Assembly (NCBI GenBank): GCA_005502875.1
Contig: SCMV01000017.1
Coordinates: 1 to 64,000, forward strand
Reading direction: 5' to 3'
Length of the DNA stretch: 64,000 bases
Source: Comamonadaceae bacterium 2PF
GTDB lineage: Bacteria; Pseudomonadota; Gammaproteobacteria; Burkholderiales; Burkholderiaceae_C
Shown here: positions 2,322-29,569 of the stretch, one piece after another
How the letters are laid out: each line of letters starts with the position of its first letter
Numbering within the stretch: the first letter of the stretch is position 1
Program-made: the position numbers and the translations under genes
Notes under the pieces: model-generated
Seen by the model: only the letters and a program-made list of their open reading frames with translations
The model's database searches: none
Told to the model about the DNA's origin: nothing

Positions 2322-2354
2322 TAGAACCCACCATTGACCATCGGACGCGCCGAC

Positions 2355-2855
2355 ATGCCCGCCAAACACATGACATCACCCCTCCCAACCCGCCTGATTG
2401 CCGGCGCCCTGGTCATCGGCGGGCTGCTCGGTTCACTCGCCCACGCCGACTCGATCGGCGAAGTCGACACCGTCTTCAAGCTGATCGGCCCGGATCACAA
2501 GATCGTGGTCGATGCGCACGACGACCCCAAGGTGCAGGGCGTGACCTGCTACGTCTCGCGGGCCAAGACCGGTGGCGTCAAAGGCGCGCTCGGCCTGGCC
2601 GAGGACCGCTCCGAGGCGTCCATCGCCTGCCGGCAGACCGGGCCGATCAGCGTCAAAGGCAAGCTGCCACGTCAGGAAGAGGTGTTCACCGAACGCACCT
2701 CGCTGGTCTTCAAGCGCCTGCGCATCGTGCGCATGCTCGACCCCGAGCGCCAGACCCTGGTCTACCTGAGCTACTCAGACCGCCTCATCGAGGGCTCGCC
2801 GGACAACAGCATCTCGGTGGTGCCGGCGCCGGGCGTGCCGATGCCCAAGGACTGA
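2355..2855 (+). CDS. creA: CreA family secreted protein
   Basis: A 166-residue protein with a cleavable signal peptide (basic start, then [18 protein letters not shown]), followed by a mature domain beginning [19 protein letters not shown]. The stretch [23 protein letters not shown] and the later [10 protein letters not shown] are hallmarks of CreA (DUF1358/YjfY-like) periplasmic proteins, whose biochemical role is not established. The two cysteines could form a disulfide. Start is ATG 2355 or ATG 2370; no strong ribosome-binding site separates them, and a TTG at 2334 is less likely. It follows katE by 33 bases and may be co-transcribed. Confidence 0.85.
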
Positions 2856-2860
2856 GCCGC

Positions 2861-2878
2861 TGCGGGGCGCGCCCCGCA
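2861..2878. terminator. Perfect GC palindrome after creA, terminator-like
   Basis: TGCGGGGCGCGCCCCGCA is an 18-base perfect inverted repeat starting six bases after the creA stop. It can form a very stable hairpin. No T tract follows on the plus strand (AAACGGTAAC comes next), so it is a weak or Rho-assisted terminator at best, or an mRNA 3'-end stabiliser. Confidence 0.4.
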
Positions 2879-2998
2879 AACGGTAACAATTTGCCCCGGA
2901 TGGGGGGACAGGGCCTGACTCGGGGGGCGCTTAAAGTCGCGCCTGCACGGGCAACGCACCCGCGCGCCACACGAATCACCCAGAGAGCACCCGACCCC

Positions 2999-3637
2999 AT
3001 GTCCCGGCCCTTCATCGTCATCGGCGACCGCACCGACCACGGCGGCGTCGTCATCGGCTCCTCGCAAACCACCGACACGCACGGCAAACGCATCGCCCGC
3101 GTGGGCGACCAGGTCACTTGCCCGAAGAAGGGCCATGGCGGCACCACCGTCATCGTCTCGGGCGACCCGACGATGATCATCGACGGGCAGCCGGCGGCGC
3201 GGCATGGCGACAAGTGCGCGTGTGGGGCGACGTTGATTTCGGGGCAGGCCGTCTCGACAGTTGGAGGAGGTGGCGGTGGCGGTGTCAGTCATGGCCGCAG
3301 CAGTGAAAGATCTAGCGCTGGCGCCCAATCAACTGATGGAGCGAAAGAAGCGCTGAAAGCAGCGGGGCTGTTCAGTTCGTTGTTACCCGAGAACCACGAC
3401 TACGACATTCACTTTGTTGTCCGTGACGAAGCAACAGGGAAAGCGCTGCCTAAGGTCTCGTACAAGATCACCCTGGAGGACGGTCGCTCAATCACAGGCG
3501 TCACCGACACACAGGGGCTGACGGAAAAAATCAGTTCAAACATCAAACAAAAAGCGACTTTGGAGGTTCATCACCATGGCGATAACAGCGACGGCGGAGC
3601 TGACTCCCAAAACCGATACGACACCTGCTGTTGCTGA
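2999..3637 (+). CDS. PAAR domain protein, T6SS spike adaptor with C-terminal extension
   Basis: A 212-residue protein. Residues 1-90 are a PAAR domain (RPFIVIGDRTDHGGVVI, VARVGDQVTCPKKGHGG-like zinc strand, DGQPAARHGDKCACGATLI), the conical tip that sharpens the VgrG spike of type VI secretion systems. A seven-glycine linker follows at about residues 90-97. Then comes a beta-rich segment (DYDIHFVVRDEATGKALP, YKITLEDGRSITGVTDTQGLTE) like the transthyretin or Ig-like modules that hold cargo. ATG 2999 was chosen because the PAAR motif begins at once; the frame is open further upstream. No other T6SS gene is in the window. The effector-like gene overlaps its 3' end by 62 bases. Confidence 0.85.
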   Translation: MSRPFIVIGDRTDHGGVVIGSSQTTDTHGKRIARVGDQVTCPKKGHGGTTVIVSGDPTMIIDGQPAARHGDKCACGATLISGQAVSTVGGGGGGGVSHGRSSERSSAGAQSTDGAKEALKAAGLFSSLLPENHDYDIHFVVRDEATGKALPKVSYKITLEDGRSITGVTDTQGLTEKISSNIKQKATLEVHHHGDNSDGGADSQNRYDTCCC

Positions 3638-4169
3638 GGTGCCCGCCAAGGACAAAAGCGGAGCCCAATGGGTGAGTCGATTTCCAGGCAGCGCCAGCCT
3701 TGACGATCTGGATCCAACATTCAAAGCAAAAGTGGAGAAGTTCATCGGCGCGATCAAGTCCGCAGGTGGTGCCGTCAACATCGCTGCGACCTATCGCCCA
3801 AGGGAGCGTGCGTACCTGATGCACTACAGCTCAAAGATTTCCCGAGGAGAGATCACCGCAGACAAAGTCCCCGCCATGGATGGCGTGAACATCGACTGGG
3901 TTCATGCCACCGACGAAGAGTCCAAAAAGGCGGCATCGAACATGACCAAGGGATACGGGATCGTCTATCCACCGGCCCTGATCTCTCGCCACACCGAGCG
4001 CGCAGCAATCGACATGACGATCACAGGTGTTGTTGACAAGAAAATCAAGAACGCATCAGGTGCAGATGTCGAGATCAAGAAACTGAGTGACCTGAATGCT
4101 GTGGGAGCCACTTACGGCGTGAACAAGCTCGTTTCAGACCCACCTCATTGGTCAGACGATGGTCACTAA
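3576..4169 (+). CDS. M15-like peptidoglycan peptidase, candidate T6SS effector
   Basis: A 197-residue protein with no signal peptide. The motif SRHTERAAIDM (His139, Asp146) matches the SxHxxGxAxD zinc site of M15/VanY-type D,D- or L,D-peptidases, with Arg in place of the usual Gly. DPPHWS near the end supplies the third ligand, His191. ATYRPRERAYLMHY resembles the substrate-proximal strand of this fold. Expected role: cleaving peptidoglycan peptides after injection into a rival's periplasm. The ATG at 3576 is preceded by GGAGG at about 3561 and lies inside the PAAR gene in another frame, implying translational coupling. Its stop overlaps the next gene. Effector status is inference from context. 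Confidence 0.7.
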   Translation: MAITATAELTPKTDTTPAVAEVPAKDKSGAQWVSRFPGSASLDDLDPTFKAKVEKFIGAIKSAGGAVNIAATYRPRERAYLMHYSSKISRGEITADKVPAMDGVNIDWVHATDEESKKAASNMTKGYGIVYPPALISRHTERAAIDMTITGVVDKKIKNASGADVEIKKLSDLNAVGATYGVNKLVSDPPHWSDDGH

Positions 4170-4698: not shown

Positions 4699-7612
4699 CG
4701 GCCGCAATCCGACGCCCCGACCCCGGCGGCACGCAGGTGTAGGTCACCTCCTGGCCGGCCACGTTGGCCAGGCTGCGCAGGGCCGCATCGGTGCGGCGGC
4801 TGCCGTCGCTGCCCACGAAGGCGTTGGCGGCGGCATCGAACCAGAAGCCGCGTCGCAAGCCGGTCTCCACCGTGTGCGCCACCAGGTCGCACTCGGTCAC
4901 CTGGCCGCCCAGCAGCTTGGACACGAAGGGCGTCTTCGCGCGCTGGATCAGCAGGTCGATGCGTGGCCAGGCGGCCAGGCGCTGCCCCGCGTCGGCGCTC
5001 AGGGTGACCTGCTGGCCCACGATGGGCGCCAGGTCGCTGTCCATGGCGTGCATGAAGTCCGAGACGTCGCGGCGGGTCTGGTTCGGGTTGAGCAGCGGGA
5101 AGCCTGAGTTCAGCGTGGGCTGGAACACGCGCACCGTGAAGAAGTGCGCCAGCAGGTCGACGGTGCCGTCGTGCACGAAGCCGAAGCCGCGCACCTGGTC
5201 GCCCTGGTGGCCCGTGTCAGGCGCCGTCGCAAACGGGATGGCAGGTGAGCCAAAGCGCCCGATCTTGGCGTACATGTTGCGCAGGTGGGGCACCTTCACG
5301 ATTTGCGAGATGCCCTCGAAGCTTTGCATCTTGCCCGTGCCGTACAGGCCCTGGGCCGCGTCCACCGTGTGGCAGCCGTTGCAGTTGTGGCTCTTGACGA
5401 AGGCGCGCAGGTTGCCGATCTCGGGCACCAGGATGCCGTCTGACGGGCGGTCGCCGAAGTAGAAATCGAAGCCGCGCTTTTGCGCCGCCGTCAGCGAGTT
5501 GTCGAGGTTGCGGATCGGGTTGGGCTGCAGTTGCACCTGCAGCATGAAGTCGGCGAAGGCCTGCATGCCGCCTTCGCTCATCGGCGCGGGGTTGCCCAGC
5601 AGCCCTTCGAAGGCCGGCGCGAAGTTCTTGAACGACAGCACCGCGTCGTCGGCATGCACACCAAAGAAGCCGTTGGAGCGGTCGCCGCGCCAGTGCATCG
5701 CGCCGGAGTTGGCCATGCCCTTGAGCGTCTGCGTGGTCATCGGGCCCTTCATGGGGTGGAAGTCCTTGGGGTCGTCGCTGCCGTTGATCTTGACCTTGGG
5801 GTTGGGCTGGAACAGGAACTTGGCCACCTGGAACTCGGTCTCGCGGGTGAACTCCTGCTTCATCGGGCTCTTGGTGACCACGTCATCCGGGTTGCCCAGG
5901 TCCCAGGCCAGGTCGTCCATGTCGCCGAAGGTGTGGCAGCTGGCGCACGATGCCTCGCCATTGGCCGACGAGAGGTTGGCGTCGTACAGGAAGGGCCGAC
6001 CGGCGATCACCGACGCCGGCTCGGGGTTGGGCAGCGCGGCCTTGGCCACTTCGCTTCGCCCCGACAGGCTCAGCACCTTGACGGCGTTGTCGAAGCGGGT
6101 CATGACGTACATGCGGTCGCGCGACTCGTCGAGCACCAGGCCGCTGGGCCCACCGCCGCTGACGGTGATGTAGCGGGCGCTGGCCGTGCGCGGGTTGAAA
6201 GTGTCGTTCTCCAGCTCGGTGGTGTCGAACACGCCGATGCGGCTGGAGCCGTTGGCGGCCACGAACAGCGTGCGCCCGTCGCGGGTGACGGCCATCTCCA
6301 TGGGGCTGGCCAGGCTGTGCTGCTTGGCGGCGGCGTCAAAGCCGGGGTCGTTGGCCAGCTTGCTGTAGTCGATGTGCTTGTTGAGGTGGCGCGGCAGCAC
6401 CTGGCCATTGCCCACCACCGTGATGCGCGACAGCGCGATCTTGCCCTGCACCGTCGAGCCGCCATGCTTGCCCGGGCCCTCGAAGCGCGTGAGGTTGTTG
6501 GCCTCGGTGTTGGTGACGTAGAGCTTGCCGGTCACCGGGTTGGTGGCCATGTTGAACAGCGTCGTGCCCACGTGCGCGTAGATGGCCTTGTCGGTCAGCG
6601 CGTTGGCGTCGACCGCGAAGACGTCCTTGTCGGGCAGGTTGAAGCGCATGGCCGGCGTCCAGTTGCGGCCGATCACGTCCTGCCATTGGCCCTTGTCGCG
6701 GTTGAACTTGACGATGAGCCCGGTCTTGGGTGCGGGCTTGCCTTCGGCGTTGGTGGCCGGACCCAGCCGACCACCGGGCGACTTCGTGCCCTTGATGTCG
6801 CAAGGCTTGTTGAGCTCGAAGCTTTCGCACACCAGCTCTTCGTTGACCGATGCCGTCTGGTTGCCCGACTTGAACGCGGCCACGTAGACCGTGTTGCGGT
6901 CGGGGCTGACGGCCAGCGCACGTGGCGTGTCGGCGAAGAAATTCATGATGCGCACCGGCACCCCGCCGACTTGCGGCGAGAGGTTGTCGGGGTTGAACAC
7001 CCAGACGTCGGCGCGCGGCACCCCGGGGGTGGTGAGCTTGGGGTCGCCCGCGCCGGGCACGCCCTTGAGCGAGACGTGCGTGAGCTGCTGGCCCCGGTGG
7101 GCCGCGGTGACGAAGGCCTTGGCGGGCGTGCCGGCGAAGACGATGTCGCGAGGCTCGTCTCCGACGAGCAGGGTGCGCACCACGCGCGGCGTGCCCTGCA
7201 GGCTGACCACGCTCACGCTGTCGGACAGGTGGTTGACCACCCAGACCTCGCTGGCGTTGCGCACCGCCACGGACACCGGCTCCAGCCCCACGGGCACGCG
7301 CGCGGCCAGTTGCAGCCCGGACGCCGTGACGTTGAACACCTCCAGCGTGTTGTTGGGCGTGTTGACCGCGAACAGCTTCGTGCCGTCGGCCGACAGGGCC
7401 AGCGGGCGGACATGGCCGCTTTCAAAAGCGATGAAGTCTGGGGCCGCAGCTTGGGCGGGAGCGTGGGCCTGAATGGCGATCAGCGCGGCACCGGTGGCGG
7501 CGGCGAACGCCGATGCGAGCGTGGACGCGAAGCCAGCCGGGCGCGAGGGGCGCAAATGGCGCGACACGGCGATCGAGCCGCTGGGCTGACGATGGCGGGG
7601 GGTGGGGGGCAT
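4691..7612 (-). CDS. Secreted beta-propeller protein with two c-type haem sites
   Basis: A 973-residue exported protein. The N-terminal signal ends around AQAAAPD. The first 500 or so residues are YVTN/YncE-like propeller repeats (LALSADGTKLFAVNTPNNTL, VPVGLEPVSVAVRNASEVWV, MAVTRDGRTLFVAANGSS). The C-terminal half resembles di-haem cytochrome c peroxidase/MauG proteins, with haem-c motifs CASCH at residue 556 and CNGCH at residue 744. ATG 7612 was chosen over an upstream in-frame start because AGGAGA sits seven bases before it. It probably acts in the periplasm as an oxidase, peroxidase or electron carrier; the substrate is unknown. Its stop shares the palindrome TCAATTGA with the convergent gene. 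Confidence 0.8.
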   Translation of the reverse strand: MPPTPRHRQPSGSIAVSRHLRPSRPAGFASTLASAFAAATGAALIAIQAHAPAQAAAPDFIAFESGHVRPLALSADGTKLFAVNTPNNTLEVFNVTASGLQLAARVPVGLEPVSVAVRNASEVWVVNHLSDSVSVVSLQGTPRVVRTLLVGDEPRDIVFAGTPAKAFVTAAHRGQQLTHVSLKGVPGAGDPKLTTPGVPRADVWVFNPDNLSPQVGGVPVRIMNFFADTPRALAVSPDRNTVYVAAFKSGNQTASVNEELVCESFELNKPCDIKGTKSPGGRLGPATNAEGKPAPKTGLIVKFNRDKGQWQDVIGRNWTPAMRFNLPDKDVFAVDANALTDKAIYAHVGTTLFNMATNPVTGKLYVTNTEANNLTRFEGPGKHGGSTVQGKIALSRITVVGNGQVLPRHLNKHIDYSKLANDPGFDAAAKQHSLASPMEMAVTRDGRTLFVAANGSSRIGVFDTTELENDTFNPRTASARYITVSGGGPSGLVLDESRDRMYVMTRFDNAVKVLSLSGRSEVAKAALPNPEPASVIAGRPFLYDANLSSANGEASCASCHTFGDMDDLAWDLGNPDDVVTKSPMKQEFTRETEFQVAKFLFQPNPKVKINGSDDPKDFHPMKGPMTTQTLKGMANSGAMHWRGDRSNGFFGVHADDAVLSFKNFAPAFEGLLGNPAPMSEGGMQAFADFMLQVQLQPNPIRNLDNSLTAAQKRGFDFYFGDRPSDGILVPEIGNLRAFVKSHNCNGCHTVDAAQGLYGTGKMQSFEGISQIVKVPHLRNMYAKIGRFGSPAIPFATAPDTGHQGDQVRGFGFVHDGTVDLLAHFFTVRVFQPTLNSGFPLLNPNQTRRDVSDFMHAMDSDLAPIVGQQVTLSADAGQRLAAWPRIDLLIQRAKTPFVSKLLGGQVTECDLVAHTVETGLRRGFWFDAAANAFVGSDGSRRTDAALRSLANVAGQEVTYTCVPPGSGRRIAAVN

Positions 7613-18225: not shown

Positions 18226-20763
18226 ATGAAAATCGTCGTTGTTGGCCACGGCATGGTCGGCCACAAATTCCTGGAAAGCCTCGCCGAAACCGGCCTGACC
18301 GGCGCCCAGGTGACCGTGCTCTGCGAAGAGCCCCGCCCCGCCTACGACCGCGTCCACCTGTCGGCCTACTTCTCGGGCACGACCGCCGAGGAGCTCTCCG
18401 TCGTTGAACCCGGCTTCTTCGACCGCACCGGCTTCGACCTGCGCCTGGCCGCCCGAGCCGCCCAGATCGAGCGCCGCACCAACACCGTCACCACCGTCGA
18501 TGGCGAAGAAATCGTCTACGACAAGCTGGTGCTGGCCACCGGCTCGAACCCCTTCGTGCCGCCCATCCCCGGCCGCGACCGCGAGCACTGCTTCGTCTAC
18601 CGCACCATCGAAGACCTCGACAAGATGAAGGCCTCGGGCGCCAAGTCCAAGTCCGGCGTCGTGGTCGGCGGCGGCCTGCTGGGCCTGGAATGTGCCAAGG
18701 CCCTGCGCGACATGGGCCTGGACACCCACGTCGTCGAGTTCGCCCCGCGCCTGATGGCCGTGCAGGTCGACGACGGTGGCGGGCGCGTGCTGCGCAAGAA
18801 GATCGAAGACCTGGGCGTGCACGTGCACACCAGCCACAGCACCGTCAAGATCGTCGATGGCGCCACGCACCGCCACCGCATGGTCTTCGAAGACGGCAGC
18901 CACCTCGAGACCGACATGATCGTGTTCTCGGCCGGCATCCGCCCGCGCGACGAACTGGCCCGCCAGAGCGTGCTGGCCGTGGGCGCGCGCGGTGGCGTCG
19001 CCATCGACGACCACTGCCGCACCAGCGACCAACACATCTACGCCGTGGGTGAATGCGCCGCCTGGCACGACCAGACCTTCGGCCTCGTGGCCCCCGGCTA
19101 CGACATGGCCCGCGTGGCCGCCAAGCACATCGCGGGTGATGCCAACGCCGCCTTCACCGGCGCCGACATGAGCACCAAGCTCAAGCTGATGGGCGTGGAC
19201 GTGGCCTCCATCGGCGACGCGCATGGCAAGACACCGGGCAGCCGCGCCTTCCAGTACGTGGACGAAGTCAAGCAGGTCTACAAGAAGATCGTGGTCAGCG
19301 CCGATGGCAAGAAGCTGCTGGGCGCCGTGCTGGTCGGCAACGCCGATGAATACGGCACCCTGCTGCAGATGGCCCTGAACGGCATCGACCTGCCGGCCGA
19401 GCCCGAGTTCCTGATCCTGCCTTCGAGCGATGGCAAGGCCAAGCCCGGCCTGGGCGTCGAAGCCCTGCCCGACAGCGCCCAGATCTGCTCGTGCAACAGC
19501 GTCACCAAAGGCCAGATCTGCGCGGCCGTGGGCGAAGGTGCCACCGACATCGCCAAGCTCAAGGCCTGCACGAAGGCGGGCGCGACCTGCGGCGGCTGCG
19601 TGCCCCTGGTCACGCAGGTGATGAAGTTCGAGATGAAGCGCCAGGGCATGGAGGTCAACAACCACCTGTGCGAGCACTTCGCCTACTCGCGCCAGGAGCT
19701 GTATCACCTCATCCGCGTCGGCCAGATCAAGACCTTCGACGAGCTGCTGGCCAAGCACGGCAAGGGCCTGGGCTGCGACGTCTGCAAGCCCACCGCCGCC
19801 AGCGTGCTCGCCTCGGTCTGGAACGACTTCGTGCTCAAGCCCGAACTCGCCAAGCTGCAAGACAGCAACGACTACTTCCTGGGCAACATCCAGAAGGACG
19901 GCACCTACTCGGTGGTGCCCCGCATGCCCGGTGGCGAGGTCACGCCCGATGGCCTGATCGCCGTGGGCCAGGTGGCCAAGAAGTACGGCCTCTACACCAA
20001 GGTGACGGGCGGCGCGCGCGTGGACATGTTCGGCGCCCGCCTGGAGCAGCTGCCCCTGATCTGGGAAGAGCTGATCGCCGCCGGCTTCGAGTCGGGCCAC
20101 GCCTACGGCAAGTCGCTGCGCACGGTCAAGTCCTGCGTGGGCTCGACCTGGTGCCGCTACGGTGTGGACGATTCAGTCGGCCTGGCGGTCGAGCTGGAGA
20201 ACCGCTACAAGGGCCTGCGCGCCCCGCACAAGATCAAGTTCGGTGTGTCGGGCTGCACCCGTGAATGCGCCGAGGCACAAGGCAAGGACGTGGGCGTGAT
20301 CGCCACCGAAAAGGGCTGGAACCTGTACGTGTGCGGCAACGGCGGCATGAAGCCTCGCCACGCGGAACTCATCGCCTCCGACCTGACCAAGCCGCAGCTG
20401 ATCGCCATGATCGACCGCTTCCTGATGTTCTACGTCAAGACGGCCGATCGCCTGCAGCGCACCAGCACCTGGCGCGACAACCTCGAAGGCGGCCTGGACT
20501 ACCTCAAGTCCGTGCTGATCGACGACTCACTGGGCCTGGGGGCCGAGCTCGAAGCGCAAATGCAGCACGTGGTCAACACCTACCAGTGCGAATGGAAGAC
20601 GGCGGTGACCAACCCCGAGGTGCGCAAGCGCTTCCGCTCCTTCGTCAACAGCGAAGCCAAGGACGAACGCATCCTGTTCGTCAAGGAACGCGGCCAGATC
20701 CGGCCCGCGAGCCCTCAAGAGCGTCAAAGCCTTGAGTCCGGCGCGACCACCGAGACCGCCTGA
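18226..20763 (+). CDS. nirB: Assimilatory nitrite reductase [NAD(P)H] large subunit
   Basis: An 845-residue cytoplasmic enzyme reducing nitrite to ammonium with NAD(P)H. Domains in order: FAD/NAD(P)-binding reductase (KIVVVGHGMVGHKFLE, then SGVVVGGGLLGLE), a [2Fe-2S] BFD-like domain (ICSCNSVTKGQIC to CTKAGATCGGC), then the sirohaem reductase core. The sirohaem/[4Fe-4S] ligands are Cys637 and Cys643 in CVGSTWCRYG and Cys677 and Cys681 in CTRECAEAQGKD. ATG 18226 is preceded by CTGGAG. nirD follows 15 bases later. The upstream sigma-54 promoter and NtrC-type site tie expression to nitrogen limitation. Confidence 0.97.
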   Translation: MKIVVVGHGMVGHKFLESLAETGLTGAQVTVLCEEPRPAYDRVHLSAYFSGTTAEELSVVEPGFFDRTGFDLRLAARAAQIERRTNTVTTVDGEEIVYDKLVLATGSNPFVPPIPGRDREHCFVYRTIEDLDKMKASGAKSKSGVVVGGGLLGLECAKALRDMGLDTHVVEFAPRLMAVQVDDGGGRVLRKKIEDLGVHVHTSHSTVKIVDGATHRHRMVFEDGSHLETDMIVFSAGIRPRDELARQSVLAVGARGGVAIDDHCRTSDQHIYAVGECAAWHDQTFGLVAPGYDMARVAAKHIAGDANAAFTGADMSTKLKLMGVDVASIGDAHGKTPGSRAFQYVDEVKQVYKKIVVSADGKKLLGAVLVGNADEYGTLLQMALNGIDLPAEPEFLILPSSDGKAKPGLGVEALPDSAQICSCNSVTKGQICAAVGEGATDIAKLKACTKAGATCGGCVPLVTQVMKFEMKRQGMEVNNHLCEHFAYSRQELYHLIRVGQIKTFDELLAKHGKGLGCDVCKPTAASVLASVWNDFVLKPELAKLQDSNDYFLGNIQKDGTYSVVPRMPGGEVTPDGLIAVGQVAKKYGLYTKVTGGARVDMFGARLEQLPLIWEELIAAGFESGHAYGKSLRTVKSCVGSTWCRYGVDDSVGLAVELENRYKGLRAPHKIKFGVSGCTRECAEAQGKDVGVIATEKGWNLYVCGNGGMKPRHAELIASDLTKPQLIAMIDRFLMFYVKTADRLQRTSTWRDNLEGGLDYLKSVLIDDSLGLGAELEAQMQHVVNTYQCEWKTAVTNPEVRKRFRSFVNSEAKDERILFVKERGQIRPASPQERQSLESGATTETA

Positions 20764-20778
20764 GCAGGAGCCTGAACC

Positions 20779-21156
20779 ATGAGCGCCGTCCTCTCCCCCA
20801 CCATGACTTCCCCTGACACCTCATCCTGGACCGACATCTGCCCGGCCGACGACATCCTCCCTGACACCGGCGTGTGCGCGCTGGTGCAGGGGCGCCACGT
20901 CGCGGTCTTCCGCGTGAAGTCCGCCAATCAAAGCGACCGCTTCTTCGCCATCGACAACGTCGACCCCAAGTCCGGCGCCAGCGTGCTCTCGCGCGGGCTG
21001 GTCGGCAGCCTGGGCGATCGCATCGTCGTGGCCTCGCCGCTCTACAAGCAGCACATCGACCTGCAAAGCGGCGAATGCATCGAGCAACCCGAACTATCGG
21101 TGAGCGCCCACGCGGTGCGCACCGAAGGCGGCCTCGTGCAGGTCAGCCTGCGCTGA
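20779..21156 (+). CDS. nirD: Nitrite reductase small subunit
   Basis: A 125-residue Rieske-fold partner of NirB. Residues from WTDICPADDILPDTGVCALV onward, with FFAIDNVDPKSGASVLSRGL and GDRIVVASPLYKQHIDLQSG, match NirD. As in other NirD proteins the Rieske cluster ligands are absent: LYKQHI occupies the place of the second CxxH. It starts 15 bases after nirB with an AGGAG sequence and is the last gene of the operon. Confidence 0.94.
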   Translation: MSAVLSPTMTSPDTSSWTDICPADDILPDTGVCALVQGRHVAVFRVKSANQSDRFFAIDNVDPKSGASVLSRGLVGSLGDRIVVASPLYKQHIDLQSGECIEQPELSVSAHAVRTEGGLVQVSLR

Positions 21157-21205
21157 CCGCCCATTGATCCTGACCGCACCGAAGAGACAAACCCGCGAAA
21201 GCAGA

Positions 21206-21221
21206 GGGCGGCCCACCGCCC
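21206..21221. terminator. GC hairpin after nirD
   Basis: GGGCGG-CCCA-CCGCCC is a perfect 6-base stem with a 4-base loop, 50 bases after the nirD stop. There is no T tract. It may end the nirBD transcript with Rho, or stabilise it. The rest of the 270-base gap up to 21426 shows no other clear element. Confidence 0.35.
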
Positions 21222-21426
21222 CGCTCGCCTGACGACGACCCGACAGAGGCGCGCAGGCCCACTCCCCCGCTGACCCTGGAACCCGAAAAATGTCCGCTTC
21301 TCCTTTCTCCCACCCGGCCGACGGGTAGCGCCCCTCGTCGCGATGCCATCGCCAACCCAGAAAACCGCCACCGGCCGGGCCAAAGCAGGGACAATCAGGC
21401 TTGTTCGCCGTCCTGACCGCCTTGCC

Positions 21427-22734
21427 ATGTCCCTGTCCGTCTCCAGCCTCGTTTTGCGCGCCAAACAATTGGAGCTGGAAGGCATCCGGCACCTCGCGGG
21501 CCGCATCGAGCTGGTCGATGTCATCGGGCAGCTGATCCACGCTTTGCAGCGCGAGCGCGGCGCCACCAGCATCTACCTGGCATCCAGCGGGCAGCGATTT
21601 GCCGGCGAACGCCAGGCCACGCTCGAGTCGGTCACACCCATCGAGGCCCGCCTGCGCGAGTTGTTCGAAGCGCAACTGGCCCCCGAGGCGGGTGCGTCGG
21701 CGCGCATGCTCTCGCTGATGGCCTGGGTGGTGCTCGACCTCGACGCCCTGAGCGGCCTGCGCGCCCAGACCGTGCAGCACACCGTCTCCGCCCACGAGGC
21801 CGTGACGGCCTACAGCCGACTCATCGCCGGCCTGGTCGAGCTCATCTTCCACGTGGCCGACGCCACGCTGCACCCCGGCATCTCGCGCCTGCTGGTGGCC
21901 TTTGTTCACCTGGTTCAGGGCAAGGAGGCCGCCGGGCAGGAACGCGCGGTGGGGGCCCAGCTCTTTGCCTCGGGGCATTGCATCGAGGCCGAGCAACAGC
22001 GCGTCATCCACCTCATCGACGCACAAGAGCGCAGCCTGCACGTCTTCGAAGAATTCACCGATCCGACCCTGCGTGGGCGCTGGCTGCAATCGCAGCTCAC
22101 GCCCAACACGGCGCAACTCGAGCGCCTGCGCCGCAGCGTGTGCACGGCCCGCCCCGGCGCCAAGCTCGACACCGCGCTCAGCGAAAGCTGGTTCGAGGTG
22201 ACCAGTGCGCGCATCGGCGAGATGGAGGACATGCTCGTGGCCCTGGTGCACGCGCTGCGCCACGACTGCGACGCCCAGATCCGCGCCACCGAACAAGACC
22301 TGCAGGACTCCGAGGGCCTGCTTGAGCGCCTGCGCCAGAACCCGCCGCGCCACAGCCACGCGGTCGACCGCTTCTTCAACGACGCCGAGCAATCCGAGGC
22401 ACCCGTTCTGTCGAACCTGCCCGATGGCCTCAAAGACGCGCCGGGTGCGGGCGCCGGTTCGGCCCTGGTCGAGTTGCTGCAAGACCAGTCGGCACGGCTC
22501 AGCCGCATGGAGTCGGAGCTCGACACGGCACGGCGCGCGCTGCACGAGCGCAAGGTCATCGAGCGCGCCAAGGGGGCGCTGATGTCGCGCCTGGGCCTGA
22601 GCGAAGAAGAGGCCTTCCGCGCGCTGCAGAAGGCCTCGATGGACCACAACAAGCGCCTGCTCGATGTGGCCGAGGCGACCTTGGCCCTCCCTGATTTCGC
22701 CTTCGCTTCACAGGTGCGCACCACCGATCGCTGA
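21427..22734 (+). CDS. NIT and ANTAR domain nitrate/nitrite-responsive regulator (NasR-like)
   Basis: A 435-residue soluble protein. Residues from about 25 to 300 form a NIT (nitrate/nitrite sensing) helical domain, with the typical IGQLIHALQRERGATSIYLA motif. A linker follows, then a helix and a C-terminal ANTAR RNA-binding domain of about 55 residues (VIERAKGALMSRLGLSEEEA, then AFRALQKASMDHNKRLLDVA). This is the layout of NasR, which binds leader RNA and prevents termination of nitrate assimilation operons. ATG 21427 is used. It probably acts on nirBD or a nitrate reductase operon elsewhere. Confidence 0.88.
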   Translation: MSLSVSSLVLRAKQLELEGIRHLAGRIELVDVIGQLIHALQRERGATSIYLASSGQRFAGERQATLESVTPIEARLRELFEAQLAPEAGASARMLSLMAWVVLDLDALSGLRAQTVQHTVSAHEAVTAYSRLIAGLVELIFHVADATLHPGISRLLVAFVHLVQGKEAAGQERAVGAQLFASGHCIEAEQQRVIHLIDAQERSLHVFEEFTDPTLRGRWLQSQLTPNTAQLERLRRSVCTARPGAKLDTALSESWFEVTSARIGEMEDMLVALVHALRHDCDAQIRATEQDLQDSEGLLERLRQNPPRHSHAVDRFFNDAEQSEAPVLSNLPDGLKDAPGAGAGSALVELLQDQSARLSRMESELDTARRALHERKVIERAKGALMSRLGLSEEEAFRALQKASMDHNKRLLDVAEATLALPDFAFASQVRTTDR

Positions 22735-23486: not shown

Positions 23487-23499
23487 GGCGCGCCCCTGC

Positions 23500-24363
23500 T
23501 CAGTAAGGGCAGTTCTGGTTGAAGCGGTCGAAGACCAGCGCCGTGGCGTAGCGCGAGTGCTCGGTGCCGCACAGGAAGGTCGAGTAGCGGGTGTCGCCAT
23601 CGACAAAGCGCTTCATCCAGGCCACGCCATACCGACCGATCGGGGTGTTGGTCGAGTTCGGCGAGAAGTGCGTGGCACCGTTGAGCTCGCCATACGCCTT
23701 CGAGGTGGCGCCGGGCAGCGCGGCGTAGAACGGCCTGGCGTGGGTGCCCACGGGCGCGATGGTGTCGCCATCGGCCCCGACGATCATCGTCGGCACGCGC
23801 ACCGTCGAGAAAGCCGAGTTGATGTTCCAGGGCGTCAAGGGGTAGGAGGCCTTGAGCGTGGGGTTGTCGCGCGCAGCGATCAGCGCACCTCCGCCACCCA
23901 TCGAGTGCCCCGCCACGGCCAGGCGGCTGGTGTCGATGCGCGCCTTCACGGCCGAGCTCGACGAGTTGACGACGTGGTTGAGCGCGGCCATCAGCTGGTT
24001 GGCGCGGCTGTCGGGTTGGTCGAGCGTGGTCAGCGTGTTGAGGGTGATGACCACGAAGCCGTGCGTGGCGATGCGGCGCCCCAGCCAGGCGATGCTGGTC
24101 TGGGTGGCGGTGAAGCCCGGGCTGATGGCGAGAACGCCGTAGCGCGCCTGCGTGGTCGGGTAATAGATGGTGCCGCCACCGAAACCTCGCGGTGCGGTGA
24201 CGGAGGCCGTGCTCACGCTGAGCGGGCCGGCCGATGCGTTGAGCGAGGCGGAGGTCGGCGCCGTGGTCTGTGCGAAGGCGCTGGCGGCAGTGGCCACGAG
24301 CGAGGTGACCAAGGTGGCGCGCCAGGTGTGGCGCAAAGCAGAGCGGAGGGGTGCGTTCTTCAT
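23500..24363 (-). CDS. PETase/cutinase-like secreted polyester hydrolase
   Basis: A 287-residue alpha/beta hydrolase with a signal peptide ending ASAFAQ. Residues [29 protein letters not shown] and [20 protein letters not shown] closely parallel the Ideonella sakaiensis PETase. Catalytic triad: Ser154 in GHSMGGGG, Asp200 in [10 protein letters not shown], His232 in NGATHFSPN. Trp179 (equivalent of PETase Trp185) is kept, and Cys265/Cys285 form the C-terminal disulfide. His153 and Phe233 replace PETase's Trp159 and Ser238, and the extra active-site disulfide is missing, as in bacterial cutinases (type I). Likely substrates are aliphatic polyesters or cutin; PET activity is untested. Confidence 0.9.
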
Positions 24364-24531: not shown

Positions 24532-25656
24532 TCACTGCAGGTGCAAACGCGCGCCGTCTTGTGCCATGCGGTACTCACGCGGCGTCAGGCCCGTCCAGCG
24601 CTTGAAGGCGTGGCGAAAGCTCACCACGTCGCTGAAGCCCAGCGCCTCGGCGATGTCTTCCGTGCTCATGCGCGTGCCCACCAGGTAGTCGATCGCCAGG
24701 CGCTTGCGCACCGCAGCCAGCAGCTCGGAGAAGCCCGCGCCTTCGGCCTCGAGGCGGCGGCGCAAGGTGCGCGAGATCATGCACAGGCGGCTGGCCACCT
24801 CTTCGATGGAAGGAAAACGTCCGCCATGCCGGGTGAGCTCTTCATAAACGCGTCGGGTCATGCCCGCGCCCCAGCTGGCCTCCTCCAGCAGCCTCGCGCA
24901 TTGCACCGACAGGTGAGAGGCCGTGATCGGGTGCGCGAGCTGCGGCGCACGCGTCAGCAAGGTGGCATCGAAGCGCAGCGTGTTGGCCGACTGCCCGAAC
25001 ACCACGGGTGCGTGCAGCACGCGCTCCCAATGGCTGACGTCCGCCGGTGCCTGTCCGATGTAGCCCGCCTGCTTGGGGCCGAAGGACTCGCCCATCACGT
25101 CCTGACCGATGCGCACGTGCGCCGCCAGTTGCAGGTCGATCATGAAGCGATAGAGCGCCTCGTCGACATCGGGCCAGGGGAAGGCCGCGCGGTCAGGGAA
25201 GGTCCAGACGGCTTCGTCGCCTTGGACCTCCCAGCGCAAGGGCAGCATGCCACCCGAGAGCGGGTGATAGCGGATGGCGCGCTCCCAGACCTGGCGCAGC
25301 GACTCCGAGCACAGCAGCGCGTAGCCGTACATGCCGTAGTGGGTCACGCCCAGGCGCTCGCCCACGCGCAGGCCGAGGTCGGCATGGGGCAGCAGGCGCA
25401 CGGCGTTGCGACTGGCGCGCAGGAACTGCGCACACGAGGTCATGGTGAAAGGGTTGCCGACGTTCTCTGGCAGCAAACCGGTGCCAGCGAGCACCTCGTT
25501 GGGGTCGGCGCCCAGCTCGCTCATCACGCCCAGCAGCACCGATAGCTTGGAGGGTGGGAAACGCCGGTCGCCAGCGCGCGCCAGCAACATGGCCGTGCCT
25601 CGTCCGTCGGTGGAGGCGCGCAAAGGCTGCGCCAGATCGGTGTCGATGAGCTGCAT
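24532..25656 (-). CDS. AraC family transcriptional regulator (OruR-like)
   Basis: A 374-residue regulator. The N-terminal ligand-binding-type domain (about residues 35-230) includes LGVTHYGMYGYALLCSESLR, as in the OruR/ArgR-like AraC group. The C-terminal double helix-turn-helix (about 275-370) has SIEEVASRLCMISRTLRRRL and MSTEDIAEALGFSDVVSFRH then AFKRWTGLTPREYR. ATG 25656 has an AGGAGG ribosome-binding site. It lies directly upstream of the polyester hydrolase on the same strand, so it is the first candidate to control that gene. A pair of phased direct repeats lies upstream at 25762-25799. Confidence 0.9.
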   Translation of the reverse strand: MQLIDTDLAQPLRASTDGRGTAMLLARAGDRRFPPSKLSVLLGVMSELGADPNEVLAGTGLLPENVGNPFTMTSCAQFLRASRNAVRLLPHADLGLRVGERLGVTHYGMYGYALLCSESLRQVWERAIRYHPLSGGMLPLRWEVQGDEAVWTFPDRAAFPWPDVDEALYRFMIDLQLAAHVRIGQDVMGESFGPKQAGYIGQAPADVSHWERVLHAPVVFGQSANTLRFDATLLTRAPQLAHPITASHLSVQCARLLEEASWGAGMTRRVYEELTRHGGRFPSIEEVASRLCMISRTLRRRLEAEGAGFSELLAAVRKRLAIDYLVGTRMSTEDIAEALGFSDVVSFRHAFKRWTGLTPREYRMAQDGARLHLQ

Positions 25657-26593: not shown

Positions 26594-26950
26594 TCAGTTC
26601 AGCGCCGCGGTCACGATGACCTCGATGCGCCATGCGGGGTTCACCAGGGGCGCCTGGAAGGTGGCGCGGGGCGGCGCGGTCACGCCATCGAACCAGGCCT
26701 CCCAGACCTCGTTCATGGCCGGCACCTCAGTGATGTCACGCACGATGACCTGGGCCATGAGGATGCGGCCGCGTGAGCTGCCCGCCTCCAGCAGCAAGGC
26801 ATCGATCTGCTCGAGCACCTGACGGGTCTGACCCGCCATGTCGGCGCTCGGGTCGGTGGGCACCTGGCCGGCCAGCCACACCACGCTGCCGTGGATGGCG
26901 GCGTCGGAGTAGCGGCGCTCGGGGTTGAGGTAACGAACGGCTGGGGTCAT
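26594..26950 (-). CDS. RidA/YjgF family enamine/imine deaminase
   Basis: A 118-residue single-domain protein, about the family length. It has AIHGSVVWLAGQVPTDPSAD, QTRQVLEQIDALLLEAGSS, ILMAQVIVRDI and a C-terminal RIEVIVTAALN with the arginine (in WRIEV) that binds the substrate carboxylate in RidA proteins. RidA proteins hydrolyse reactive enamines and imines such as 2-aminoacrylate in the cytosol. ATG 26950 is the start. It is followed by the unknown gene at 25794. Confidence 0.88.
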   Translation of the reverse strand: MTPAVRYLNPERRYSDAAIHGSVVWLAGQVPTDPSADMAGQTRQVLEQIDALLLEAGSSRGRILMAQVIVRDITEVPAMNEVWEAWFDGVTAPPRATFQAPLVNPAWRIEVIVTAALN

Positions 26951-27013
26951 GTCTCGGGTCTCGGGTTCCAGTTCGGTCTCTGCGCGAGACCACCCCCGAT
27001 CATCGCCCGAACT

Positions 27014-27502
27014 TCACTGCGTGCGCGTCCAGACCTGGGTGCGACCGAAAGCGGGCACGCCCCGGTAGCCGCGCACCTTGAGCTGCTGGCCATGCTCCAG
27101 CACGGTGATCTCGACCTTGTAGACCTTGCCCGAGCCGGGGTCGAGCACCTGACCGCCGGCCCATTTGTCGGTGTTGTCGGGGTCACCCTTGAGGTTGCTC
27201 AGGATCTCCAACCCAGCCAGCGGGGCGCCCTTGCGCTCGTCGTCGCACAGGTCGCAGCGCAGGTCTTTGGCCGAGCGGCCATCGAGCAGGCGAACGATGC
27301 GCCCCGAGAGCACGCCATCGCGCTCGGTGATGACGATCTCGGCCTTGCGCTGCTTGCCGCCATCGTCAAAGCTCCACCAAGTGCCCACGGGGCTGCCATC
27401 GGCGTGGGCAACGGGCACCCAGCCCAACAGGGGCAGGCAGATCAGGGCCAGGCGGGCGAGGGTCACGGGCTTCAAACGGCTCTCCGGTTCGGGGCTTGTC
27501 AC
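27014..27502 (-). CDS. DUF2147 family secreted protein
   Basis: A 162-residue exported protein with signal peptide KPVTLARLALICLPLLGW to AHA. The mature domain GTWWSFDDGGKQRKAEIVIT, SGRIVRLLDG and KVYKVEITVLEHGQQLKVRG then YRGVPAFGRTQVWTR is DUF2147. A CDLCDDERKG segment is the family's usual two-cysteine motif. GTG 27502 was chosen: an AAGGGG sequence precedes it and the signal peptide follows; an ATG at 27559 is possible but would add an unusual extension. Function is not established for the family. Confidence 0.85.
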   Translation of the reverse strand: MTSPEPESRLKPVTLARLALICLPLLGWVPVAHADGSPVGTWWSFDDGGKQRKAEIVITERDGVLSGRIVRLLDGRSAKDLRCDLCDDERKGAPLAGLEILSNLKGDPDNTDKWAGGQVLDPGSGKVYKVEITVLEHGQQLKVRGYRGVPAFGRTQVWTRTQ

Positions 27503-27718
27503 AAAAAACCCCTTACTCTCCCATCCGGATGCTCGCACGTCAAGGTAATTTGCCAGCATCTGGCGATGAATCGACACGTTGACGCCATTTGGCCGACGTT
27601 GATCACTCATGTTGTCAAAATGAGCAACAGAAACAGCGTGCGGCTCAAGGCAGGGAACTTAGCCAGGCCGGCAGCGTCCCACCAGGACACCTTTGAATCA
27701 CCCGAGCGACGGCCCAAG

Positions 27719-29569
27719 ATGATCCAACGCCTGTGCTGGTTGGTGCTGCTGTGCAGCCAGCTCCTCTGTGGCAACGCCGTGGCCGACGTGCTGCGCATCG
27801 CGCCCGGACAGCCCTCCCTGAACGTGCACGCCGCCGCCGACGTGCTCGAGGACCCGTCCGGTCGGCTCACGCTGCAGGACCTGCTCTCAGGGGGCGCGGC
27901 CGAGGGCTTTCGGCCAGCGGGCTCGGCGCTTTCGAGCTTTGGGTTCACGCGCTCGGCCCACTGGTACCGCTTCACGCTGGACAACCCCGGCAACACGCCG
28001 CAGCGCAGGCTGCTGGTGCTGCGCACGCCCTGGCTGGACACGGTGCACCTGTACGCGGCCGATGCGCAAGGGGGCTTCGAGGAGCGCCTGGTGGGCGACG
28101 ACCTGCCCTTCTCGGCCCGAGATCACCTCACGCCGGCCTTCGTGCTCGAGGTGACCGTTGCGCCGGGGCGCCACACCCACTACCTGCGCGTGAGCAGTCG
28201 CCAGGCCTTCATGACCCCGATCGAGCTGTGGCAGCCCGAGGCCTTCTCGGCCGAACAGGAGCGCTGGGCCGCCTACTACGGCATGTTCTACGGCATCTTG
28301 CTGGTCATGGTGCTCTACAACGGGCTCATCTGGCTGTGGACCCGCGAGCCGAACTACGCCTGGTACTGCCTGTACCTGCTGGCCTTCAGCGCCATGAACG
28401 CGTCCTACAGCGGCTTTGCCTTCCAGTTCTTCTGGCCCGACTCGCCCGCCTGGAGCAACCTGGGGCACACCGTCTTCATCTTCATCTTCCAGGTCACGGC
28501 CACGCTGTTTTCCATGACCTTCCTGGAATCCAGGACACGCCTGCCCCGGCTGCACCGGGTGCTGCAGGGCTTCCTGGGGCTGCTGCTGGCCTGCTGGCTG
28601 GGCGTGACCTTGTGGGGCAACCCGGTGGCCTACAACGCCGCCCCCGTGAACTTCATCTTCCTGGGCACGCCTTTGATCCTGGCCGCCGGCCTGGCCGCCT
28701 GGTGGGGAGGCTACCGGGCCGCGCGCTTTTTCGTGCTCGCCACCATGGTCAGCCTGGGGGGCGCCCTGTGCACCGCGTTGACGGTCAGCGGCTGGCTGCC
28801 CTACACCTTCGCCACCTTCCATGCAGCGGAGTTCGGCATCCTGATCGACGTGGTGCTGCTGTCGATGGCGCTGGGCGACCGCATCAAGCTGCTGCGCGAT
28901 CAGCACCACGCCACGCAACAAGCCATGCTCGAGCACAAGCTGCAAGCCAGTGACATGCTGGCCCAGGCCAATGCGGACCTGGAGCGCACGGTGCAAGAGC
29001 GCACCGCCGAGCTGGCCCGCGCACGCGACGAAGCCGAGCGCCTGGCGCGCACCGATGGCCTGACCGGCGTGGCCAACCGGCGCTGCTTCGAGGAGGTCGC
29101 CGCAAGAGAAGTGGCCCGCGCGCAGCGCTACCAACAACCGCTGTCGATGATCCTGTTCGACATCGACCTGTTCAAGCAGGTCAACGACCAGCACGGCCAT
29201 GCCGCAGGTGACGCGGTCATCCGAGCAGCGGCCAGCGTGGTCCGAGAGGCCGTTCGAGAAGTGGACTTCGTGGCCCGCGTGGGCGGCGAAGAGTTCGCCA
29301 TCTTGCTGCCTGGCATCCACCAGGCGCAGGCGGTGACCACGGCCGAGCGGCTGCGCGAGCTCATCTCAGAGCGCGAGGCCGTGCACCAGGGCCTGAGGCT
29401 GCGACTGACCGCCAGCCTGGGCGTGAGCGAGTGCCGCGCCGACGACGCCGGCTTCAGCGCCCTGCTGCACCGCGCAGACCAGGCCATGTACATGGCCAAG
29501 CAGCGCGGTCGCAACCGGGTGGCTGTGGCGCCGGATGCGCCTGATGCACCCGATGCGCCGGCGGCCTGA
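27719..29569 (+). CDS. Membrane diguanylate cyclase with 7TMR-DISM sensor
   Basis: A 616-residue inner-membrane protein. Signal sequence, then an extracytoplasmic 7TMR-DISM extracellular-2 type sensor domain (about residues 25-185, with GFTRSAHWYRFTLDNPGN), seven helices (about 190-390, starting YYGMFYGILLVMVLYNGLIW), a short coiled coil (RTVQERTAELARARDEAERL) and a GGDEF domain with the active-site variant GGEEF at 522-526. It should make cyclic di-GMP. No upstream I-site RxxD is obvious; RAQRYQQPLS precedes FDIDLFKQVND. The tail is a PDAPDAPDAP repeat. ATG 27719 is used; ATG 27620 is in frame but would push the signal sequence inward. Confidence 0.9.
   Translation: MIQRLCWLVLLCSQLLCGNAVADVLRIAPGQPSLNVHAAADVLEDPSGRLTLQDLLSGGAAEGFRPAGSALSSFGFTRSAHWYRFTLDNPGNTPQRRLLVLRTPWLDTVHLYAADAQGGFEERLVGDDLPFSARDHLTPAFVLEVTVAPGRHTHYLRVSSRQAFMTPIELWQPEAFSAEQERWAAYYGMFYGILLVMVLYNGLIWLWTREPNYAWYCLYLLAFSAMNASYSGFAFQFFWPDSPAWSNLGHTVFIFIFQVTATLFSMTFLESRTRLPRLHRVLQGFLGLLLACWLGVTLWGNPVAYNAAPVNFIFLGTPLILAAGLAAWWGGYRAARFFVLATMVSLGGALCTALTVSGWLPYTFATFHAAEFGILIDVVLLSMALGDRIKLLRDQHHATQQAMLEHKLQASDMLAQANADLERTVQERTAELARARDEAERLARTDGLTGVANRRCFEEVAAREVARAQRYQQPLSMILFDIDLFKQVNDQHGHAAGDAVIRAAASVVREAVREVDFVARVGGEEFAILLPGIHQAQAVTTAERLRELISEREAVHQGLRLRLTASLGVSECRADDAGFSALLHRADQAMYMAKQRGRNRVAVAPDAPDAPDAPAA

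Follow-up and report, generated by a model that had tools for sequence, protein, structure and literature searches.

A predicted foldase relative without MD2 adjoins Gram-negative PETase-family genes, among them a type I enzyme of Comamonadaceae bacterium 2PF and IsPETase

Few plastic-degrading enzymes have been studied as much as the PETase of Ideonella sakaiensis (IsPETase). Its soluble yield is a theme of the field, and passages of two papers name GroEL/ES, DnaK, tags, secretion and host choices among the measures tried (PMC12296185, PMC11587651). Type I relatives, as passages of Joo 2018 define them, have no extra disulfide, no extended loop, and His and Phe/Tyr at positions 159 and 238 (PMC5785972). 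Lipase-specific foldases (Lif, LipB, LipH; PF03280) are described as inner-membrane proteins that fold secreted lipases before type II export, and the passages on LipH assign stable client contacts to MD2 and transient ones to MD1 (PMC7046727, PMC13381987). Membrane-bound chaperones of substrates of the type II secretion system (T2SS), LipB and CpaB included, form a described class, with CpaB, the chaperone of the CpaA protease, as a precedent for a client other than a lipase (passages of PMC4713064). Breakdown of mcl-PHA in Burkholderia vietnamiensis involves a lipase, its chaperone and the T2SS, the chaperone there serving the lipase (passages of PMC13101487). Our search covered open PMC papers and, among those listed, found none joining a foldase or lipase chaperone to a PETase; subscription papers and preprints lay outside its scope and may mention the neighbour gene. 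Subscription papers reportedly deal with the PBS depolymerase of Acidovorax delafieldii.

The window analysed here, a stretch of 64,000 nucleotides from the Burkholderiales genome of Comamonadaceae bacterium 2PF, encodes an enzyme (Table 1) that is, on its sequence, a type I PETase-like polyester hydrolase, as the first-pass annotation had proposed. It matches PF12740 'PETase' at E 9.4e-105 (350.2 bits, residues 25-286 over profile positions 2-263 of 263), and a reading as a dienelactone hydrolase or member of another family was rejected on the comparison of scores (DLH 20.9 bits versus PETase 350.2). Against the NCBIfam equivalog for the BHET hydrolase BdeA (NF051441) it scored 351.7 bits, under the curated cut-off of 520. 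The top five PDB sequence matches (8eu1, 8ety, 8etz, 8eu0 and 8etx) are named 'Polyethylene terephthalate hydrolase', and cutinases come next.

Residues were compared with those of full-length IsPETase taken from locus L014, which the window PETase was said to track almost end to end and with which it shares 141 of 277 aligned residues (50.9%). The triad S154/D200/H232 aligns with S160/D206/H237 of IsPETase, H153 and F233 replace W159 and S238, W179 corresponds to W185, and C265 and C285 correspond to C273 and C289. At the positions of Cys203 and Cys239 stand A197 and S234, so that the additional disulfide is absent, and the loop after His232 is three residues shorter than in IsPETase, with no extended loop. 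In triad, disulfide, loop and 159/238 residues the protein thus has the type I sequence features of Joo 2018 (passages of PMC5785972). The first-pass annotation had read the same substitutions, the same lack of a second disulfide near the active site and the same retained tryptophan and C-terminal disulfide from the letters alone, and the alignment bears it out on each; it had also staked its reading on family and triad, and by sequence the protein falls in PF12740 and all three triad residues align. Within the genome collection, where 493 relatives were confirmed and the best 80 kept, the closest named one is an Aquabacterium parvum locus (93% by tblastn; 95% identity over 277 columns of the tree alignment). 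A 2023 paper reportedly concerns, by its title, expression of an A. parvum lipase described there as closely related to IsPETase. To judge from its family, the window enzyme is most likely a secreted polyesterase of the cutinase type that attacks aliphatic polyesters and, weakly, PET.

One proposal, that the enzyme is a natural intermediate towards PETase, was rejected. In an unrooted tree of 53 enzymes with long branches, which took in 25 of 74 actinobacterial loci, the window PETase groups with Aquabacterium enzymes (starred) inside a proteobacterial set that also holds one Syntrophaceae enzyme, away from the IsPETase group; the deeper fork between the two, in the same unrooted tree, is labelled 94/98 and unstarred. 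The tree thus gives the intermediate reading no support, and the features behind it are normal for type I: His with Phe/Tyr and the missing second disulfide are ordinary, because all type I enzymes have them by definition. By itself, the window enzyme is an ordinary further member of a well-known kind.

The unusual part of the window is the foldase-like neighbour gene, absent from the first-pass annotation. We call its product mini-Lif, withholding the name Lif because it has neither MD2 nor the foldase motif; it is predicted to be a membrane-anchored relative of the lipase-specific foldases. The window protein scored 24.9 bits against PF03280, with a cut-off of 25.7 and over the N-terminal half of the profile only, and 28.7 bits in the genome search; 19 of the 20 proteins in alignment A2 match that family at E<=0.001, and the mini-Lif linked to IsPETase (251 aa) reaches 60.1 bits.

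Table 1. Features of the enzyme and its neighbours in the window.
Feature	Position	Strand	Details
Type I PETase-like polyester hydrolase	23500..24363	minus	ATG 24363, stop TGA 23502-23500, 287 aa
Signal-peptide-like N-terminus of the window PETase	about residues 1-31		judged by eye
Mini-Lif (predicted foldase relative), 242 aa	22758..23486	minus	PF03280 match, AlphaFold2, Foldseek, alignment
Gap between PETase stop and mini-Lif ATG, 13 nt	23487..23499	minus	GGGG stretch upstream of ATG
AraC-type regulator (PF12625 Arabinose_bd + PF12833 HTH_18)	24532..25656	minus	upstream of PETase, same direction

A PDB sequence search with the window mini-Lif gave no match up to E 1, and only fold comparison found foldases. 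The AlphaFold2 model, computed from a 20-row alignment, has a predicted membrane-type helix at residues 14-36, where hydropathy also peaks, a low-confidence linker between residues 38 and 82, and a helical domain of about residues 91-240, with six helices in residues 104-240 mostly at pLDDT >90. Its top three Foldseek matches in the PDB are 2es4_D, 2es4_E and 9g8u_B (probability 1.00, TM 0.42-0.47, rmsd 4.9-7.7), at E 3.6e-3 to 1.1e-2, so that none reaches 0.001; the fourth, the foldase domain 6gsf, is weak (E 1.6, probability 0.30). For the model of the IsPETase-linked mini-Lif, whose matches to these chains also have probability 1.00, the E values were 1.7e-4 for 9g8u_B, 1.3e-3 for 2es4_E and 2.1e-2 for 2es4_D; three matches of low probability follow before 6gsf at rank 7 (probability 0.75). 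2es4 and 9g8u are foldase-lipase complex entries, whose matched chains we take to be the foldases. On these models, mini-Lif would have the MD1/EHD-type fold of the foldases.

MD2 is absent from all 23 PETase-linked mini-Lifs, which extend 0-24 residues past canonical residue 230, against 59-120 residues in 16 full-length Lifs of the same alignment, and the FDY of the RXXFDY(F/C)L(S/T)A motif occurs in 0/23 of the former and 8/16 of the latter. Mini-Lifs and Lifs (2es4, 9g8u, 6gsf) share a predicted N-terminal membrane helix, a disordered linker, an MD1/EHD-type helical domain and a gene that adjoins that of a secreted hydrolase; they differ in MD2, in FDY and in the partner, a family I lipase for Lifs and a PETase-family enzyme for mini-Lifs. 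CpaB resembles mini-Lif in being membrane-bound and encoded beside a secreted non-lipase client, but its domain is SRPBCC according to passages of its paper (PMC4713064), a distinction that we draw by description only.

The 2PF genome has four PF03280 matches, on contigs C26, C88 and C44 and in the window. The C26 copy is a full-length Lif (142.8 bits) beside lipase-like genes, as judged from translations, and the C44 copy follows immediately on a second PETase-family gene (229.9 bits). The genome also encodes the GspD secretin of the T2SS (590 bits). Upstream of the second PETase, positions 2334-3689 of locus L002 encode 451 aa that include an F5/8 type C (discoidin-like) domain; the product is perhaps a surface-binding partner. 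Finding two PETase and mini-Lif pairs in one genome led us to a wider linkage search. As the order sample gave few matches, with a PETase in the 2PF genome only (1/399) and a mini-Lif in 2/399 (2PF and one weak match elsewhere), we used a family sample of 399 same-family genomes, taking PF12740 matches at E<=1e-30 as PETase genes and scoring up to six candidates per genome.

This family sample holds 22 PETase genes in 11 of the 399 genomes. Loci with 1.5-kb flanks contain a mini-Lif for 19 of these genes, and two of the remaining three each come second in a tandem pair in which the first gene adjoins one. By our grouping of neighbouring PETase genes, 18 of 19 clusters have a mini-Lif. The other cluster, in genome G548 (L025/L150), has no mini-Lif within about 5 kb. 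Its PETase-family gene (L150, 5019-5933) is very divergent, with a branch of 3.07 in the 53-enzyme tree and GHSAGG instead of GHSMGG.

The mini-Lif HMM was built from 16 family-sample proteins, making the loci from the genome collection and from a class sample independent tests. Among the best 80 of 493 in the collection, which is not a census, all six non-actinobacterial loci have a mini-Lif (two Aquabacterium, one Hydrogenophaga, two Steroidobacter and one Syntrophaceae), in one case (L062) right behind a second PETase. None of the 74 actinobacterial loci among the same best 80 has one (best E 0.11), five of these loci having less than 1.5 kb on one side. The class sample (360 genomes) added two new PETase loci, both from one gammaproteobacterial genus of another family and both with a mini-Lif (E 8e-18 and 6e-17). 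By our tally, which counts near-identical loci (IsPETase, the G731 plasmid, G600a) separately, 26 of the 27 Gram-negative PETase clusters that we examined adjoin a mini-Lif, spanning Burkholderiales, Steroidobacter, the further gammaproteobacterial genus and Syntrophaceae. Scoring stopped at the best six or seven candidates of each genome, so genes can be missed, and the counts for G731 are 'at least' values.

Linkage on this scale bears on the plainest account of the locus, that an ordinary type I PETase happens to lie beside an unrelated gene. The enzyme is indeed ordinary and the window neighbour, taken alone, falls just under the PF03280 cut-off, but 26/27 Gram-negative clusters against 0/74 actinobacterial loci (among the best 80 of 493) leaves that account a probability close to negligible. 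The same counts set the window PETase apart from bacterial cutinases of the TfCut2 and LCC kind (PF12740): it has their triad, His/Phe pair, Trp185 equivalent, single C-terminal disulfide cysteine pair and lack of an extended loop, but is betaproteobacterial and adjoins a mini-Lif.

Searching in reverse with the mini-Lif alignment, we listed 59 rows in 43 of the 399 family genomes. Twenty rows reach at least 176 bits: 18 adjoin a PETase, one adjoins a PETase cut by a contig end, and the remaining one lies on a plasmid with a PETase two genes away. The rows under 176 bits are full-length Lifs and a few short proteins, with other hydrolases beside some. Lif-like genes without MD2 also lie just behind PHB-depolymerase-type esterases (PF10503) at loci L148 (G521) and L149 (G553), so that the helper is not confined to PETases and the mini-foldase idea may reach beyond them. 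An AraC-type regulator and a carboxylesterase are close to the Lif-like genes of L148 and L149, and L147 (G443) has a similar Lif-like gene and regulator. At L145 (G731, 4917-6944), a short Lif-like gene is divergent from what looks by eye like a secreted, hydrolase-like protein, which matched no Pfam family at E 0.001.

A regulator does not appear to be a general part of the module. In three other Aquabacterium-type loci, too, a close relative of the window's AraC-type protein (E 1e-160 or better) is encoded upstream of PETase and mini-Lif (L001, L019, L032 and L033 in all), and that role was rejected because close relatives are confined to these four; most family loci were surveyed with 1.5-kb flanks only, in which some regulators may be missed. 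More distant relatives lie by one G548 pair (E 1e-25), beside Lif-like genes at L125, L126 and L145-L149 (E 1e-13 to 1e-22) and also at one actinobacterial PETase locus among the best 80 of 493. We found no promoter-like site at the locus, and its terminator-like sites (four, against 1.1 expected) are not informative. Adjacent to the pair lie a NirB nitrite reductase and a NIT-ANTAR nitrate sensor (18226-22734), a nitrate assimilation region seemingly unrelated to it, and a 7TMR-DISM receptor with a GGDEF domain is encoded at 26891-29569.

IsPETase itself has such a neighbour. Locus L014 (genome G449) encodes a 290-aa PETase whose last 267 residues are identical to residues 24-290 of PDB 6qgc (267/267), and its divergent neighbour gene encodes the 251-aa mini-Lif. 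This enzyme, of type IIb, belongs to the same family as the window PETase (51% identity) and differs in W159, S238, the second disulfide and the extended loop; both genes adjoin a mini-Lif, which is divergent from the IsPETase gene and downstream of the window PETase gene. A 3.8-kb stretch carrying the two IsPETase-locus genes (L151) recurs at 99.4% identity on a Piscinibacter gummiphilus plasmid (L112 1-10741, NZ_CP136337.1), near an IS1071 transposase gene. Thus, the cassette was recently transferred between the IsPETase genome and this plasmid. Public annotation calls the plasmid genes 'poly(ethylene terephthalate) hydrolase' and 'lipase secretion chaperone', so the parts of the pair are already labelled in databases. 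A strong mini-Lif on a Piscinibacter plasmid without a directly adjacent PETase was counted against the pairing.

Enzyme and mini-Lif distances are correlated across 24 pairs (Mantel r 0.81, with 0 of 10000 permutations as high), a value that may partly reflect shared ancestry and transfer. Loci L155 and L156 are in the enzyme tree and were left out of the Mantel test and of the mini-Lif/Lif alignment. Paralogous pairs, three in G600 and four in G731, sort alike in both proteins, and the deep branches of the mini-Lif tree are poorly supported. Mapped on the 53-row tree, mini-Lif presence requires two changes, one of them the divergent L025, versus a mean of 18 with shuffled labels. The mini-Lif evolves faster than the enzyme, with a mean identity of 30% versus 54%, and in six comparisons its dN/dS is 0.24-0.40 (the 0.40 pair having a dS of 1.5, near saturation) versus 0.09-0.18, which points to purifying selection on the mini-Lif.

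These data make it very unlikely that the mini-Lif is a relic, decaying and without a present role, left from a lipase-foldase operon whose lipase gave way to a PETase. Its shortness relative to Lif, its missing foldase motif and a TAG stop in the matched stretch of the G458 copy, which may be failing, would suit such decay. However, the matched stretch is stop-free in the other 19 of 20 strong reverse matches, the gene persists in Burkholderiales, Steroidobacter, one more genus of gammaproteobacteria and a Syntrophaceae bacterium, its dN/dS is 0.24-0.40 in the six comparisons, and it occurs both co-directional with (17/26) and divergent from (9/26) its PETase.

We think it likely instead that PETase and mini-Lif are client and chaperone, with the mini-Lif dedicated to the folding or export of Gram-negative polyester hydrolases in the periplasm; the interaction itself is suggested by the linkage and by foldase kinship, and Lif-like action is our leading hypothesis. 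The hydrolase, made with what appears from its N-terminus to be a Sec-type leader, would reach the periplasm, where the mini-Lif, which a single helix would anchor in the inner membrane and whose disordered linker would extend into the periplasm as AlphaFold2 and hydropathy predict, might hold the folding enzyme with its MD1/EHD-like helical domain and pass it to type II secretion. The 74 actinobacterial loci among the best 80 of 493 hold no such partner for their enzymes, and Actinobacteria have no such periplasm.

Two observations limit how far the comparison with lipases can be taken. Active IsPETase has been produced in E. coli, in a paper whose passages name no such partner (PMC11587651), so that folding does not strictly require the neighbour, and the absence of MD2 and FDY from 23/23 mini-Lifs means that the classical foldase mechanism is not simply transferable. 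Both would be compatible with an accessory of another task, one that tethers or delivers folded PETase to the T2SS or keeps it inactive in the periplasm until export, and the linkage and co-evolution data fit that task equally well. Against it, the predicted mini-Lif fold is the foldase fold, and chaperones of T2SS substrates of the LipB and CpaB type are already described (passages of PMC4713064); we regard it as a possible but rather unlikely alternative to a folding or export chaperone. Without MD2 and FDY, such a chaperone would probably be a weaker, fast-releasing aid to folding or export yield and not an absolute foldase, which fits IsPETase being obtainable in E. coli.

Judged by the open papers searched, what is new here is the pairing of PETase and mini-Lif, a variant of the foldase-hydrolase kind whose enzyme is itself of a known kind; mini-Lifs beside Gram-negative PETases, the Ideonella PETase included, seem to have gone unremarked. 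We lean towards the broader view that the polyester hydrolases of Gram-negative bacteria, with IsPETase among them, are served by a class of miniature, MD2-less steric chaperones of their own and so form a third class of clients for membrane-anchored foldases, beside lipases and type II proteases. That the neighbour gene is conserved between phyla and accompanies each paralogue suggests a natural helper. If this is true, IsPETase would so far have been made and engineered without its natural helper.
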